A stretch of 64,000 nt of DNA from contig NC_087393.1 in assembly GCF_963675165.1 (NCBI RefSeq), positions 2,919,502 through 2,983,501 of the forward strand, written 5' to 3'. The notes under the pieces are model-generated. The model had not been told where the DNA came from. It searched no databases and worked only from the letters and a program-made list of their open reading frames with translations. Shown here piece after piece: positions 4,009 through 56,803 of this stretch. This DNA is from Halichondria panicea. Taxonomy: Eukaryota > Porifera > Demospongiae > Suberitida > Halichondriidae. Position 1 is the first letter of the stretch. Every line of letters starts with the position of its first letter. The position numbers and the translations under genes are program-made.

Positions 4009-4364
4009 AAACGCATCACATGCACCAATGTAGGTAGAGAATAAGAGTCTGTCTGGCAAGTCTGCTCGAGATTCTGAGATAGCTAATGGGAATGCATCGG
4101 TTGGTACAATCCTACTTACGATTTTCATTATTAGTCAGGAGATCATTTGCTAAGCTTTATTTTGGACCTCAAGATCATTTTTTCAGCGTTCAAGCCAATC
4201 AAGTGAGCATACATAACAACATAAGCTTTCCGTGGTACTTTATAGTTTGGATGGTGTATTTTGAAAGTTAGGGTGAGTTGTTTGCAGGCCGCGCAGACTC
4301 AATACCTTCTTAGGAAAATACCGGGCTACTTCTCATGCAAATACAGGCTCTACTCCTAGTGAAT

Positions 4365-47262: not shown

Positions 47263-47266
47263 CCGG
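47263..47266. other. CCGG target-site duplication, left
   Basis: CCGG directly precedes the TGTCA terminus of the Ginger1 element; the partner copy is at 51631-51634. CCGG-specific 4-bp duplication is the known preference of Ginger1 elements. Confidence 0.85.
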
Positions 47267-47345
47267 TGTCAGAGCCCGGTGGGAGTGACTCCCCGGTCAT
47301 TCCTGCCTAAGGTGTGGGTGACTCCCCCAGGAATAAATGACTCCC
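47267..47345. repeat. Left terminal region of Ginger1
   Basis: TGTCA followed by two subterminal motifs (GTGACTCCCCGGTCATTCCT and GGTGACTCCCCCAGGAATAA). Related motifs, inverted, fill 51440-51630. Confidence 0.8.
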
Positions 47346-47684
47346 TTATGCGCATGTTTGTTCCCGCCAATGTTGCCATCAATGTAAGTATAATTATAAT
47401 AGCAAGAGTACATTCATGCACTCCTCATAGACATATAGTAGAGAATGAAGAGCCATGCAGGATGAAGAGCAAGGTTAGTAGTAGCATGCAAGGTAGCAAT
47501 GAAGCAAGTGTTCATCCTGTAGTAGACAGCAAGTGACAGCTGGAATGTAGACCTATAAATGTGTGAAGAGCAAAGTTGCAAGGTTAATTGTTCTATCCTG
47601 TAGTTGACAGCAAGTGACAGCTAGATCTATAGTATAAAACCAGTGATCGTTCACAGTCATGTCATTTGAAGAAGGCAGCAAGAA

Positions 47685-50600
47685 ATGGAGAATTTACAAG
47701 AGATTGAAAACTATTTACGAAAAGGAGAATACCCTCCTACTATTAACAGCAAAACAGAGAAGGCAAACTTTAGAAGAAAATGCAGGCAGAACTTTAAGTT
47801 TGAAAATGGTAGCCTCTATTACAAGAAGCACACCAAAGCTGCTGATGCAGCTGACTGGAGGATATGTGTGCGCAGCGATGAGGAGAAATCAAGAATCCTC
47901 GAAGATTGCCATGCAGGTATAATAATTATTATGGCTTTGGTAAAATGATAATAGTAGGTAATAGAGCATGTATGTATGCTTGTAATCTATTATACGCATG
48001 CATGCAGGAACAGCTGGTGGCCACTTTGGAAGAGATAGAACTATAGACAAGATATGTTCTAGATTCTACTGGAAGTCGATGGTGGAGGAGATCCGAGAGT
48101 ATGTAAAGAACTGCAGCCAGTGCCAGAGAATGAACCCAGCATTTGTAAAGGCAAATGCCAAACTCCATCCGATATCTGTACAACCCAAAGTCTGGTATCA
48201 GGTATGTATATACTATAATTTTTATGGCATTGCATAATAATTATTTGTTTTGAGCACAATCATATATTAATTATAATTATGTAATTCACTTTATAGGTTG
48301 GCATAGACTTGATAGGACCTTTGCCGATTACACCCAATGGCAGCAAATATGTGGTAACATTGGTCGATTATTTTAGCAAATGGGCTGAAGCAGCCCCACT
48401 CCCTGACAAAACTGCATTTGGAGTGGCAATGTTCCTGTACAACTTGTTTTGTCGGTAAGCTATGCATGTGTGTGAAATTGTAATCACATGCATCTCTACA
48501 CATAATTATAATAACACGTATTTAATGATTATGGTTATACATGCACGCAGGTTTGGGTTTTGTGAGGTGCTGATATCGGACCAAGGCCGTGAGTTTGTTA
48601 ATCAGGTCAACACAGAGCTTTTTCGATTCACTGGAACAGAGCACAGGGTCACTTCAGCTTACCACCCACAAACCAACGGGCTAACTGAACGTTTCAATCA
48701 AACACTTCAAACAGCACTACTCAAATATGTGAATGACTCACAGACCGACTGGGACTACCACTTGCCCGCTATTCTCTTTGCTTACAGGACGAGTAAGCAA
48801 AAGGCAACGAAGTATTCACCTTTCGAGTTGATGTTCTGTCGGTGAGTTGTTCATTATTATAATAATTACATGATAATCTGGCATGCATGCATTATTATTA
48901 TAACATTCCACATGCAGGAAACCTGTACTCCCTATTCAACTGGAGTTAGGCAGCGAGGGTGAACTTGAGCAGAGCTGGGACATTAGTGCCATTATGACCC
49001 ATGCTCGAGCTGTTACAAAGTTAAAGGATGATATCCACAGCAAAGCCAAGAAGAACATTGACAATGCCCAAGAAAAGGACAAGATGTACTATGATCGGAA
49101 GCATGCAGACAAGAGGGTGAGCAGGCTATATCATTGTATGAGCGTACCATGGCTATTTTCATTACTCGTTTAATGTCATAGCCATGTCATTTTTCTAGGT
49201 GTTTAAGACTGGGAGTTTGGTCTGGCTGAGGAATTCAGCCAGGGAATGTAAGAAGGGAGACAAGCTGAAGCCTCGGTGGTTAGGCCCATACACGGTGGTG
49301 GAGTGTTTGGACAAGGGAGTCTTTAAGATTGCCAACCCTAAGACTGGAAAGACCTTAAAAAAGGCTGTTAACCAACAGCGGTTAAAGCATTACCATGGCT
49401 CAGACTCCGAAAAACCTCTCTTGGATCAACATAGTTCTCTCTCGGATCCTTCCGAATTATCAGACAACCATCACGATGAATCTCTCGATCAGTTTAATCC
49501 TTCTTTGATGAGTACTCCTGTGAAAGACCCAAGCAAGGTATAATGCATGTGTATCTAGATTTTGAAGCTAATTATAATTACATTACATTTCTCTTTACGA
49601 TATTAATTTAATGTTTCTTTATAATTATGCACTCCATTTTTAGAAGCTGTGGGATAAAAATTGTGATTTTCCCTCTTCTCACAAGCCAGACGCCCCCTCC
49701 TCTCACAAGCCAGCCGCTCCCTCCTCTCACAAGCCAGACGCTCCCTCCTCTCACAAGCCAGCCGCTCCCTCCTCTCACAAGCCAGACGCCCCCTCCTCTC
49801 ACAAGCCAGCCGCTCCCTCCTCTCACAAGCCAGACGTCCCCTCCTCTCACAAGCCAGCCGCTCCCTCCTCTCACAAGCCAGACGTCCCCTCCTCTCACAA
49901 GCCAGATGCTCACTCCTCTCGCAAGCGAGACGCCCCCTTCTCTCAGGTTAAGACTGCATCCTCTATGGAGCCACCTTTGAAGAAGCAAAGGACTACTCAG
50001 TCTGTAACAAGAAAGGTATAATATAGTTATATATTTGTTAACAGGAGCTATCGTTAATTGCAATTATTATTAATAATTATGTGCATGCACACTATAAACC
50101 GTTCATTATAATTATTGTGTGCACATTCGACAGAATTCAAGCTACTGGGTGAAGGATTTGGACCTGAGGACGGGAGACAAGGATATAGTTTTTGCTGAGA
50201 GCGGGATGCTTTCTGACCGTCATATGTATGCTGCGCACAAACTGATGAGAATGCAATTTCCAAATATTGAAGGCTGCTATTCTACTCTTCTGGTTCAGAA
50301 GATGTCCTTTCCTGCAGTCACTAGTAGTGAAGCCACAGGTATAATTTCTACTTAAATTAATAGTAGTATTATTATTGTATTGGTATAATTATACCTCATC
50401 CTCATCCTTGGCCGTATAATTATAATATAATTATATCATATATATATCCTATACAGCCGTGCAGATATTCTTTGTAACAGAGAGGCATCACTGGATTGCG
50501 ACAGCACTCATCAAGGGGGAACTTTTCCTCTTTGATAGCTGCTTCCAATATGGGAAAGACCTGGAGCCAAGTGCTGAGCTGCAAATTACACAGATATATA

Positions 50601-51013
50601 AGCCTTTAATAGCGCACAATGGGCTGTTACTATCTGTGGCCTCCATTCAACAGCAGAGCAGTGGCAGTAACAACTGTGGTTTGTTTGCAATTGCCGCTGC
50701 ATACCACGCATTGCAAGGAGACAATCTGGATACCATCACCCTAAATGAAGACAAAATGAGGCCACATCTTGTGCGTTGCTTTGAAAATGAGAAACTCAGA
50801 AGATTTCCAAAGTCAAAAGATATTAGTAGCGGCAAGAGACCAGAAAGATTTTCCAGCATAGTATTTACGATATACTGCCCTTGTCTCCGTCCTGACTGTT
50901 ATGATGAAATGGTCCAGTGCGATACGTGTAATGTGTGGTATCATTATAAATGTGTTCGTATTAAAGTATCTCCTCTTGGAGATTGGTTTTGTCCTACTTG
51001 TAGATCTAGATAG
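47685..51013 (+). CDS. Ginger1 transposase: integrase + Ulp1 protease + PHD finger (9 exons)
   Basis: Exons: 47685-47916, 48008-48201, 48297-48454, 48551-48841, 48918-49116, 49199-49537, 49644-50015, 50134-50338, 50457-51013. All introns are GT-AG and 70-130 nt, and the sum is 2547 nt, 848 aa with no stop. Residues 1-75: LRKGEYPPTINSKTEKANFR and NGSLYYKK (YPYY-like N-terminus). About 75-120: HHCC zinc finger ending CSQCQR. Core: D146 in GIDLIGP, D205 in ISDQGREF, E241 in NGLTERFN, exactly DD35E. GPY motif in PRWLGPYTVVE near 385. Residues 480-565: about a dozen PSSHKP(A/D) repeats. Ulp1/C48 protease: H675 (HHWIATAL), D690 (FDSC), Q728-730, C737 (NNCGLFA). PHD finger from about 805: YCPC, QCDTC, WYHYKC, WFCPTC. 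Start is the first Met; an in-frame stop lies 18 bases upstream. Expected role: nuclear DDE transposase cutting at CCGG. The protease may process SUMO or a similar modifier (inference). Confidence 0.92.
49672..49940 (+). repeat. 24-bp coding minisatellite (PSSHKP repeats)
   Basis: About eleven copies of a 24-base unit (CCCTCCTCTCACAAGCCAGA CGCT and the GCCGCT variant) alternate in exon 7 of the transposase. Each encodes eight residues, P-S-S-H-K-P-(A/D)-(A/V). The alternation of D and A types shows that 48-bp dimers were amplified. Antisense frames here are artefacts. Confidence 0.95.
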
Positions 51014-51440
51014 AATTTTTTTAGCATTTCGTTATCTTCCACTAGCTGTTTTTGTTTATACACTGTTAATTTGCACTGTTGTTTTGTTTGTTTTTCATGC
51101 ACTGTAGATCTATTTGTTATTTTGATGGATGTTGTTGTATTATAAGTTTTGCTTTACAGTGACCGTGAGACGTGTGAAAATGTGAACAGAGTGTACAATG
51201 TAGTATAAGTACTATAGGTACTAATAGCTAGACTGAACCAGTTTACAGTATATAAGGAACAGCTGTAATATAGTCGTACTATGTATTAAACAGGTCTCTC
51301 ACAGATAGCATGCATGCATGCAGTCCTGATATAACAGTCTTGAGCTTGATTGTATAGTCACACTGTGACAGGTTTTGAGGATGCATGTACTTAGTATAGC
51401 CCCTGAAGTCTCTTTAGCTCTATGGATCAGTGTTCGTATA
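51014..51440 (+). other. 3' untranslated part of the Ginger1 element
   Basis: Non-coding DNA between the transposase stop and the right terminal repeats, AT-rich with pyrimidine runs (51020-51130). ATTAAA near 51286 could serve as a weak poly(A) signal. Confidence 0.4.
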
Positions 51441-51550
51441 TAAATTTCGGGGGAGTCATTTTTTCCAGGGGGGGATCATTCGTGACTAGGAGTCAGTGAC
51501 CGGGGGAGTCATTTATTCCTAGGCGTGAGTGACCGGGAGTCACTGGTGTG

Positions 51551-51582
<32 letters not shown>

Positions 51583-51630
51583 CCTAGGTAGGAGTGACCG
51601 GGAGTCATTATTTAGGGGAGTCATATGACA
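51440..51630. repeat. Right terminal region of Ginger1, with GT microsatellite
   Basis: Several copies of GGGAGTCA(T/C) and GAGTGACCGGGAGTCA stand in tandem, split by a pure GT/GC run at 51545-51582. The outermost bases TATGACA with the following CCGGTGTCATA form an 18-bp perfect palindrome centred on the target duplication. Confidence 0.85.
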
Positions 51631-51634
51631 CCGG
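51631..51634. other. CCGG target-site duplication, right
   Basis: CCGG directly follows the right TGACA end and matches 47263-47266. Confidence 0.85.
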
Positions 51635-51639
51635 TGTCA

Positions 51640-51775
51640 TAAAATTTTAGGCCCCCCCAGGCCCTAGAATTTGAAAATTTTGGGCCCCCTGGGCCTAGAA
51701 TGTTAACAGTTTAGGCCCCCCAGGAGGTCCAATCTGTTAAAATTCTAGGCCCCCTCTTCTGCTATCCTTTTCTGC
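51640..51775. repeat. Short tandem repeats TTTAGGCCCCCCAGG
   Basis: Four degenerate copies of a unit of about 35 bases (AAAATTTTAGGCCCCC..CCAGGCC) follow the Ginger1 right flank. Non-coding. Confidence 0.7.
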
Positions 51776-51785
51776 ACGATAGAAC

Positions 51786-54381: not shown

Positions 54382-56803
54382 ATGGCGGAATTGTCTAGGT
54401 AAGAGAAATAGAGGTAAGAGAAATAGAGACTGAGAGGTCATCTGCCTCGTGGAAGCAATCGCAAATCTGAAGAAGCGCTTTGTAATCCAGGTTGTAGTCG
54501 TTTGGAAACCCTGTGCAGAATGTCCTGGAGATGGCTGTACTTGGAGCAAATGCTGGGCAAGAAACTTACTTACTCACTTACTTACTTACTTACTTACTTA
54601 GTCAGTCAGACAAAGAGCGGTGAAATGTCGAAATAGTGCAATTTTTAAAATGACAATATTCATTTATTAAAATGTTCATGGATTATGAAATGAGAGATAC
54701 AAAGAGAGAAAAGGCTAAATAAACTATCTGTATAGCCAGTTCCTTGATGTGGCCTTTCCCTGCAGAGATAGAACAGTTTGAACATGAGTCAAAATAATTG
54801 AAATATTGCTAAACACGGGCAAACCCACTGCCAATCCTATGTAAAACCTACTGGTTTTACTAATCTAGTTCTTGTGCATACAAGCCCAGAGCTTGTATCA
54901 AATGTGAGAATGGACATGAACACAAGCAGTATTGTCTAAGTATTAAAGTGTTGTTTCTGAGCTTCTCTCTTTCTTGTTGACTTTGAGAATCCCTCTCAGT
55001 ATTTAACATGAGGCAGATTCTTGGGATGACTTGCATCTGTCATCAATGACTTCTTTCAGAGTTAATAATGACTTGTTCTCTCTGTTATTTTTATTGCCAT
55101 AGTTTGGAGGCAACAAAAGTAGAGGCAAAGTGATGCATTCCAATGACGTAGCGTGTCACGGATAGCTTCAAATTTTCTACCGTTGCCAATCCTTCCCTTC
55201 CTATATCTTTGATAGAACGAAGTCAAAGAGATATAATAATATGGTAAGGTTAGCTCTATTAGTTGACAAAGCATCAAAGAGACTGCATGCATGCAAAGAC
55301 TCTGTATCAAAGTAGCAAGAATTCAAAGTGAAGGAAGATTTACCTTTCAAGTTACTCTAGCCTCGAGTTACTCATGCTTATACCTATAAGAGTTAAATGC
55401 TTTGATGCAGCTCTGCAATGTTGGATCTTCCTGTAAGACAATCGATGTTGTGCATAGCTATCGCCATAATTATTTGCAACTTCGTGCTTACTTTCTCAGC
55501 CAAATTTCAGGACAAAACATGGCGGCGTTATCCCCAAGCGGCTGGCTGCCAAAGGAGGCAAAATTTTGTGAATTCATAATAATTATAAAGTATAAAGCAC
55601 ACAATTTTCAGTGCAAAGACATGTTTGTGGCTACCATATATTGCACTGCATTATATGGCATAATGCACTGGAGTAGTGAATATTTTTAAAGTAACAATTT
55701 AATGGATTATATGCACTTGCACTGTGTGTAAATGCAGTAGATTTCTTTAAGAGATATCCATTTGGGACTTATGCCGCACCATCCCACCCAATACTCAGTT
55801 GGTCCCTTTTATAGGCTACTACCTTTACAACTACTAGTGGGAAGAAAACCTAAAAAAATGAATTCAGCAAAACTAATGAATACACTAAATTCCTTCAAAA
55901 CACATGTCGTTTATATGACCAGTCAGACGAGTTTAACGTCATTGGGCAACAAGTTAGTTATTGCAGGCGCCCTCGTGCAACATGCCATACCGTAAACGTT
56001 GAAATTTTCGACGCATCAAAATTTCGCACTTTCTGCACTAGGCCCACAATTCTTAAATTTCGTGCGCATAAATTTTCGTCCGTTATATTAACGTAGGTGT
56101 GGCTACCACGTACACGTACACCCACGTATATATTTAATTTCGTGCATTGAGTCCAAGGACGAAAAAACCAAGGACGAAAAAAATGGACGAAAAAAACGAA
56201 ATTAAACACCCGTCGAAAATTTCAACGTTTACGGTATATTGCACTGGATGACATAATGCCCTCGGGGCCTGCGGCCCTCAGGCATTTAATTGCTCCAGTG
56301 CAATATATGGCATGTTGCACTCTGGCTGGGCAATAACTAATACATATTATATCTGTCCTCCTGACACAGTACTTGGAGCGTATTTACCAGGAACTAGAGG
56401 CAAAGGTGTGTGAAGCTACAGAACAGTATGTAGCTCTACAAGATGAAGTATGAAAGGCTGGAGTACTGATAATAGCCCTTGTCAAAAGGACCTGGGCAAA
56501 GAAGGAACCTATCCCAGATCCTGGACAACTCACAGCAATACTTCTGACATGGCAAAATTGAAAAATCCTACAGATCCCTTCATGTTATCAGAAGGAATGT
56601 TTTAGTCCAAGTCATAATAAAGAAGAAGAAGCTATATAGATTGCCCTGGCACAATCACACTATCCAAACTAGAAGAGCAAGGGCAACCAATTAATTTTTA
56701 TCCTCAGATAATTACAGAAGAACTACAGCAGAACTACAGACTCGCCTTACAAGACCTCACGTTCGACCTAGTCGAGTGTCTCAAATTACAGCAGACAGTG
56801 TAG
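54382..56803 (+). CDS. Putative 70-aa coiled-coil protein, four exons
   Basis: ATG at 54382 has a good context (AAAGATGGCGG). Proposed exons: 54382-54398 (17 nt, MAELS), 55411-55432 (22-nt microexon), 56370-56447, 56708-56803, all GT-AG, total 213 nt. The joined protein begins MAELSSSAMLDLP, continues YLERIYQELEAKVCEATEQY (amphipathic helix) and EELQQNYRLALQDLTFDLVE, and ends CLKLQQTV before TAG. Heptad-like spacing and lack of repeats argue for a small host gene, perhaps a subunit of a multiprotein complex. The family is not recognised. The microexon is inferred only because it links the frames; exons 3 and 4 are the best supported. Nested transposons occupy the last large intron. Confidence 0.42.
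54562..54602. repeat. CTTA microsatellite
   Basis: About nine tetranucleotide units ACTT/CTTA in tandem, followed by AGTCAGTCAGAC. Confidence 0.9.
55047..55211. repeat. 165-bp segment identical to 25419-25583
   Basis: Second copy of the segment that adjoins the Gypsy pol remnant at 25600-26900. Here it stands alone, as a solo fragment would. Confidence 0.9.
55954..56340. mobile_element. Outer inverted-repeat element TTAGTTATTGC
   Basis: TTAGTTATTGC..GCCCTCGTGCAACATGCCATA at left is mirrored by TATGGCATGTTGCACTCTGG and GCAATAACTAA at right. A further hairpin (ATATTGCACTGGA against TCCAGTGCAATAT) lies at 56236-56306. The element at 55989-56235 is inserted within it. Confidence 0.75.
55989..56235. 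mobile_element. Inner TIR element ACCGTAAACGTTGAAATTTT
   Basis: TACCGTAAACGTTGAAATTT then TCGACG is inverted at the right as CGTCGAAAATTTCAACGTTT then ACGGTA. TA at each border fits TA-target duplication. The core is AT-rich with GACGAAAAAA repeats. Confidence 0.88.

Follow-up and report, generated by a model that had tools for sequence, protein, structure and literature searches.

Does an open transposase gene between recognizable transposon ends mean that the transposon carrying it can still move? This question is raised by a locus on contig NC_087393.1 of the breadcrumb sponge Halichondria panicea, a common shore species (assembly GCF_963675165.1), within a stretch of 64,000 nucleotides (positions 2,919,502 to 2,983,501 of the forward strand), which is here called the window and whose own numbering is used throughout. 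Positions 47263-51634 of the window hold a Ginger1-type transposon. The initial annotation, made from the letters alone, had described it as complete and apparently intact, with readable ends and a nine-exon transposase, and had taken it as a sign of recent or current activity, or of selection on the protein. Our analysis favours, with a probability of about 0.88, a single autonomous-type Ginger1 cut-and-paste transposon, inserted at CCGG with duplication of that site and encoding a nine-exon transposase that combines an integrase with Ulp1 and PHD domains, its tips being damaged and the copy itself probably a poor substrate. Its anatomy, target duplication, open frame and kinship, together with the very recent spread of its sister copies, are shown by sequence comparison.

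Anatomy of the element and its transposase

The element is bounded by CCGG at 47263-47266 and at 51631-51634, and its termini read TGTCA from position 47267 and TGACA up to position 51630, the former agreeing with the TGTNR rule for the 5' end of Ginger1. The 5' terminal and subterminal region (47267-47346, forward strand) contains GACTCCC and CCGG repeats, which recur in inverted orientation in the 3' terminal and subterminal region (51470-51630, reverse strand), where a GT-repeat expansion is also found; both regions were delimited by alignment with other copies and by genome searches for the tips, the 3' region also by alignment of the inverted repeats. Between them, on the forward strand, nine exons separated by GT-AG introns sum to 848 codons without a stop, and these exons, like the TGTCA ends and the CCGG flanks, were found as annotated when the sequence was read again.

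Exon 1 (47685-47916) encodes a putative YPYY region and the start of the H2C2 zinc finger, which continues in exon 2 (48008-48201). The catalytic residues of the integrase core, D146 in exon 3 (48297-48454) and D205 and E241 in exon 4 (48551-48841), have the exact DD35E spacing previously noted, D205 and E241 being separated by 35 residues. Exon 5 (48918-49116) is followed by exon 6 (49199-49537), in which the motif GPYT at residue 387 and a match to SH3_Tf2-1 below the curated Pfam cut-off mark the GPY/F motif and an SH3-like domain. Exon 7 (49644-50015; 372 nt in the window) corresponds to a low-confidence part of the structure model and holds an in-frame 24-bp coding repeat (SSHKPD/AAP). 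Exon 8 (50134-50338) begins the Ulp1-like domain according to the structure model and fold comparison, and exon 9 (50457-51013, with the stop at 51011-51013) carries the Ulp1 catalytic residues and then the PHD finger. The 24-bp repeat is a coding minisatellite whose copy number varies between near-identical transposons with the frame kept: exon 7 measures 237-492 nt over 20 copies including the window copy (the rearranged L026, with 179 nt, being excluded); ten of the 12 young copies described below have 444 nt and the other two 396 nt.

The best protein match of the window gene is P0001, isoform X3 of LOC135348618 from H. panicea itself. Six sister copies (L011, L013, L015, L017, L019 and L020) yield exactly this protein after splicing, once the exon-2 acceptor is shifted 6 nt downstream to an alternative AG; therefore all eight introns are supported, and an alternative exon-2 acceptor is added. 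The NCBI gene model LOC135348618 is, in other words, a transposon gene. Two H. panicea gene models, P0001 and P0002 (LOC135348618 and LOC135332020), match the family of the window copy, hereafter the first Ginger1 family.

Pfam recognizes Integrase_H2C2 (E 5e-20) and rve (E 1e-9) in the window protein, with no reverse transcriptase or RNase H found in the protein. Two short motifs on the N-terminal side of the zinc finger, YPP at residue 16 and YY at residues 45-46, align with homologs and lie where a YPYY motif would be expected. In fold comparisons of the structure model, model residues 1-425, which form the integrase body, match the integrases of Ty3 and foamy virus, while the C-terminal Ulp1-type domain was identified by fold comparison together with its catalytic residues. 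The four active-site residues claimed earlier were confirmed as H675, D690, Q730 and C737, and they are conserved in 28, 27, 26 and 30 of 32 alignment rows, respectively, misaligned rows being counted; the domain is a putative SUMO-type cysteine protease. Pfam places a PHD finger at the C-terminal end, after Ulp1. It is closest by sequence to Yng2 and ING4, with Y, M and W kept at the positions aligned with these proteins. An aromatic residue (Y/F) with M and W occurs in 10 of the 15 rows in which both PHD halves are aligned, P0001 included, and is absent from the other 5 (P0031, P0043 and P0053, only half aligned, are left out). In ING proteins, Y, M and W form an aromatic cage that reads trimethylated lysine 4 of histone H3 (H3K4me3), and the PHD finger of the transposase may do likewise. 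Many of the best protein matches carry Ulp1, OTU or PHD domains, and the C-terminal region of P0001 used as a protein query returned two matches only, both from H. panicea.

As a working mechanism, transposase made from the spliced nine-exon mRNA would bind the inverted ends of about 100 bp, and an intasome resembling those of foamy virus and Ty3 would join these ends to CCGG with a 4-bp stagger; the ends, the duplication length and the target are observed here, and excision is what we infer. The Ulp1 domain may remove SUMO-like tags and so modulate SUMO state, and the PHD finger may dock on histone H3 tails, modulating docking to chromatin.

Sister copies, age and tips

The initial annotation had proposed a genome search for near-identical copies. 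With the first kilobase of the element as query, at least 57 matches were obtained, many of them short end pieces, and the 20 longest other copies, 17 of which have both ends, were compared. Twelve of these (L010-L020 and L024, the young copies) are at least 99.7% identical among themselves over ungapped columns, with zero differences among L011, L013 and L017, and likewise between L014 and L016. The nine-exon frame is open in all twelve (856-874 codons) and broken by frameshift or truncation in the eight others (L009, L021, L022, L023 and L025-L028); a chance origin of the gene is excluded because the 20 other long copies align and 12 keep the same frame and splice sites. Exact 4-bp duplications flank 11 of the 12 young copies, the exception being L017, and 17 of the 18 two-ended copies when the window copy is included. 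Of these 17 duplications, 10 read CCGG, 3 ACGG, 2 CCGT, 1 TCGG and 1 CCCA, so that 15 follow the CCGG/CCGT/ACGG rule of Ginger1 targets. In addition, the older copy L022 has a paralogous empty site: an inverted paralog of its insertion site, some 0.5 kb distant, is uninterrupted, carries a single CCGT and is otherwise identical save for a 3-bp gap. Because twelve copies are near-identical and open, duplications are exact and one paralogous empty site is at hand, the comparison strongly indicates that the first Ginger1 family has moved very recently. Its assignment to Ginger1, which the TGTNR ends, CCGG-type duplications, H2C2/DDE integrase, GPY motif and C-terminal Ulp1 domain support together, agrees with the original one.

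The window copy stands apart from this burst. It is 98.4-98.6% identical to the twelve young copies and 99.0-99.3% identical to L009, L021, L022 and L023, and in a tree calculated with L026 excluded it groups with L022/L023, L021 and L009, outside the young group (branch supports 68-93). Over 3,723 shared columns (L026 and L027 excluded), the window copy has 19 private substitutions and the young copies 0-4; the other values are 3 for L022 and 4 for L023, which form a close pair, 10 for L025, 12 for L021, 14 for L009 and 72 for L028. These comparisons place the window copy as an older one, not a member of the young group. Recent or current activity, as first suggested, thus finds support for the family, with its twelve near-identical open copies and eleven exact duplications, and none for the window copy, with its 19 private substitutions and unique tips.

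Those tips differ from the tips of the other copies. The window 5' tip lacks 13 bp after TGTCAGAG, between 47274 and 47275, and its 3' tip lacks 8 bp before ATGACA, between 51624 and 51625. The standard 5' start, TGTCAGAGGAATGAATGACTC, is present in 17 of the 19 other copies having a 5' end (in L020 with one substitution), and the standard 3' tip in all 17 having a 3' end (in L025 with one substitution). The 5' tip of L021 shows a 3-bp insertion, and the loss in L027 starts where the window loss starts, being similar, not identical. With up to two mismatches allowed, 73 standard tips were counted across the genome, whereas the window-type 5' tip and the window-type 3' tip were each found only at the window in a search allowing up to one mismatch. 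Moreover, the inverted repeat of L011, the one sister tested, spans 93/102 bp from the tip with 79 of 88 aligned columns identical, in line with the 40-270 bp of Ginger1, while that of the window copy fails from the tips, its best alignment starting at 5' position 20 and 3' position 120. Because tip bases are lost, the tips are unique and the inverted ends no longer align from their extremities, the window copy, with both tips internally deleted, appears to be a poor transposition substrate. It is probably immobile by itself, with its gene still open, and could still supply transposase. The open frame of the original description therefore stands, and its intact ends do not. That description also lacked the PHD finger, the alternative exon-2 acceptor, the variable 24-bp repeat of exon 7 and a second Ginger1 family adjoining the 3' CCGG.

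Selection on the protein, the other explanation initially offered, was addressed separately for the window copy and for the young lineage. Between the window copy and L011 there are 13 silent and 16 replacement changes, with a replacement/silent ratio of 0.32 outside exon 7. Codons changed only in the window copy, scored against L009, L011, L021, L022, L023 and L025, comprise 9 replacement and 4 silent changes (P = 0.27 versus neutral, with low power), and selection on the protein of the window copy is not borne out. Because these private changes look neutral, limited age would explain the open frame, without shown selection on this copy. Codons changed in the young lineage (L011 versus the window copy, L009, L021, L022, L023, L027 and L028, with L025 excluded) comprise 6 replacement and 7 silent changes (P = 0.008), and from this we conclude that the young copies descend from a transposing lineage under selection.

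A second Ginger1 family and target choice

The right CCGG of the window copy doubles as the CCGG of a second-family tip, TGTCATAAAATTTTAGGCC, which belongs to the end of an old copy at 51635-51785 (forward strand), recognized by tip search and protein comparison, with a further piece at 55201-55621. The tips of this second Ginger1 family read TGTCATAAAATTTTRGGCC, and TGTCATAAAATTTTAGGCC with its CCGG has 257 genome occurrences at up to 2 mismatches. The family includes two long copies (L057 and L058) and derivatives of 982-1350 bp (L037, L038 and L043-L056). Its transposase, as encoded by L057 and L058, shares 44-69% of its amino acids with the window protein or P0001 where these can be aligned; five proteins compared with the 16 derivatives gave no match at E 1e-3, the coding kinship resting on the two long copies. 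CCGG lies on both sides of 16/16 derivatives, which were chosen by the CCGG pattern. In a search not anchored on CCGG, which found 167 tips and listed 100 of them, CCGG is present at 88 of those listed and in 57 of 69 distinct 10-base flanks. A preceding A is not in excess (22/57 flanks versus 42/128 CCGG sites in the window, P = 0.50).

Copies of the two families touch more often than expected by chance. A second-family tip adjoins 3 of 21 first-family copies (the window copy, L010 and L017) and also the fragment L039, and second-family copies lie inside first-family subterminal repeats at L038, with both sides seen, and at L040, with one side seen. Among the 100 second-family tips listed, a list drawn from only part of the genome and in which duplicated blocks are represented, 8 adjoin a TGACA tip, some of these being opposite sides of a single junction, and 3 are located in GACTCCCGG, counts given without a P value. 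The adjacency of 3/21 has P = 8e-6 if all CCGG sites are equally likely, 3e-5 for ACCGG/CCGGT sites, and 0.012 if ACCGGT is the real target, this last count depending on 5 sites in the window. Both families might preferentially insert at each other's and their own ends, a self-nesting guided by end sequence beyond CCGG, in which the duplicated CCGG at the tips and the CCGG of the subterminal repeats would serve as the next targets and end recognition would help target choice. We put this forward as a tentative idea, somewhat doubtful because the adjacency weakens to P = 0.012 under an ACCGGT target. At L041 and L042, head-to-head second-family copies have one common CCGG. Avoidance of CCGG within the element was considered, as the body of L011 contains 0 versus 3.2 expected under a first-order model, and was rejected as a general feature, since L057 and L058 contain CCGG.

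Small insertions were also recorded, by counting indels in the window copy, L009, L010 and L021-L028 against L011, outside exon 7 and the ends, so that insertion and deletion are defined relative to L011 and need not give the true direction of change. Every insertion of four bases (14, such as TGCA/CATG, AATT and AGCT) and every one of two bases (14, TA/AT, several of them within AT runs) is palindromic, with P ~4e-14 for the four-base set under uniform 4-mers; among deletions, 4 of 5 with four bases and 2 of 6 with two bases are palindromes. Many insertions have the shape XY -> XY-rc(XY)-XY (for example, TG -> TGCATG), and several frames are broken by short insertions. Palindromes make up a smaller share of the indels in the second family, 7 of 17 among four-base and 12 of 29 among two-base ones. 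The insertions look like an excision-footprint or snap-back repair signature, possibly a genome-wide one; no literature on palindromic tetranucleotide insertions in sponge genomes was found. Larger insertions occur in L025, where a 62-bp hairpin at about element position 100 has a short target repeat, ATGTTTGTTCT, on both sides and is perhaps a minute foldback element, and in L026, where 1,269 bp at about element position 4030 represent another DNA transposon, bounded by inverted ends CATAGATACTGTACACTCCGTGGATGTGAAAC and apparently flanked by a 7-bp duplication, GTACAAT.

Alternative explanations and relation to known systems

Several observations weigh against parts of the interpretation given here. 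The Ulp1 domain receives no Pfam score by sequence, its call depending on fold and catalytic residues, and a PDB sequence search with the Ulp1 region gave no match. The PHD finger is a putative histone H3 tail binder by residue resemblance only; no PHD chain was among the matches listed in the whole-model fold comparisons, and no search with the PHD finger folded alone was made. Targeting of CpG islands through the PHD finger was rejected, as the observed/expected CpG ratio is 0.52 at 15 insertions versus 0.61 at 62 background CCGG sites (P = 0.08, in the wrong direction), which shows no CpG-rich preference. That sample leaves out the window copy, L010 and L017, which lie beside the second family, and L021, L026 and L027, which lack an end; the result would still allow histone reading by the PHD finger. 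Finally, the window copy retains TGTCA/TGACA and its CCGG duplication, and a 17-bp loss slightly further in, just inside the standard 5' start and between direct repeats, occurs in L010 (a young copy), L023, L025 and L028. From these last two points, and from the open frame, it could be argued that the window copy is still mobile, its inner losses being harmless as long as the terminal 6-8 bp (TGTCAGAG/ATGACA) and the subterminal repeats remain. We consider this unlikely, given that no second copy with the window tips was found in the assembly at up to 1 mismatch, that the initial 21 bases of the 5' end follow the standard in 12/12 young copies (with a single substitution in L020), as do their 3' tips, and that L027, the sole other compared copy showing a comparable loss, is an old, broken one.

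The open frame, with its replacement/silent ratio of 0.32 relative to the young copies, could also be taken to mean that the host has adopted the gene and keeps the frame by selection at this site, as happened with GIN1 in vertebrates, and NCBI does annotate sister copies as ordinary genes. Such adoption seems quite improbable beside private changes of the kind expected without selection (9 replacement and 4 silent; P = 0.27, low power), a target duplication and damaged transposon ends around the gene, and 12 closely related open copies elsewhere. Segmental duplication or assembly redundancy, instead of transposition, might have produced the near-identical copies, since identical flanks at several second-family tips on contig C1 do point to duplicated blocks there. 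For the twelve young copies, the 50-bp flanks differ from site to site, judged by eye, their duplications vary (CCGG, ACGG, CCCA), and the empty site exists for the older L022, which leaves this origin very little room. We give even less credence to a remnant of a Gypsy/Ty3 long terminal repeat (LTR) retrotransposon, which the match to Ty3 and foamy-virus integrases might suggest: the ends are inverted and not direct repeats, the protein contains neither reverse transcriptase nor RNase H by Pfam, and the exon-intron layout is kept in 12 young copies, whereas copying from spliced RNA would lose introns. Ginger2/Tdd was rejected as well, as it needs an AT-rich RTATAY target and lacks GPY/F, and here targets are mostly of CCGG type and GPY is present. 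A damaged Ginger1 copy within a recently active family thus remains the explanation that we prefer.

Our literature search, which did not extend to Repbase, found no Ginger transposon of sponges and nothing on PHD-finger DNA transposases with H3K4me3-linked integration sites; judged by titles or the openings of abstracts, the H. panicea genome and transposable-element literature contained nothing on a Ginger1 family. With 12 near-identical open copies, standard versus damaged tips, and a second family with short derivatives, H. panicea makes Ginger1 excision, target choice, and the roles of Ulp1 and PHD testable. According to Bao, Kapitonov and Jurka (2010; PMC2836005), Ginger1 elements have TGTNR ends, 4-bp duplications of CCGG or CCGT/ACGG and inverted repeats of about 40-270 bp, occur in Hydra, Aplysia, Branchiostoma and Acyrthosiphon, and have 0-4 introns in the table, their excision mode being stated as unknown.

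Among known proteins, the whole integrase body (model residues 1-425) resembles, in the structure model, the integrases of Ty3/Gypsy and foamy virus, which belong to reverse-transcribing elements or viruses, whereas the window protein continues into Ulp1 and PHD. The best matches outside Halichondria are two proteins of another sponge, Ephydatia muelleri, P0003 and P0004 (53% and 51% identity over the matched part), both with an integrase and Ulp1, and P0003 also with PHD. The second H. panicea family is like the first in its TGTCAT ends, CCGG duplications and Ginger1-type transposase, and differs in tip and subterminal sequence; the part of L058 that matches residues 110-391 of the window protein is interrupted only around the site of window intron 3, continuing without a break where introns 2, 4 and 5 lie in the window copy. 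Closest in layout is Ginger1-9_HM of Hydra, which, as described in the same article, has the same H2C2, DDE and GPY/F, probably YPYY, and C-terminal Ulp1 and PHD. The window family departs from the Ginger1 elements described there in that its host is a sponge, its gene is interrupted by eight introns, and a 24-bp coding repeat of variable copy number lies between the integrase and protease parts. By its sequence features, the window family is Ginger1 as already defined, with these three differences.

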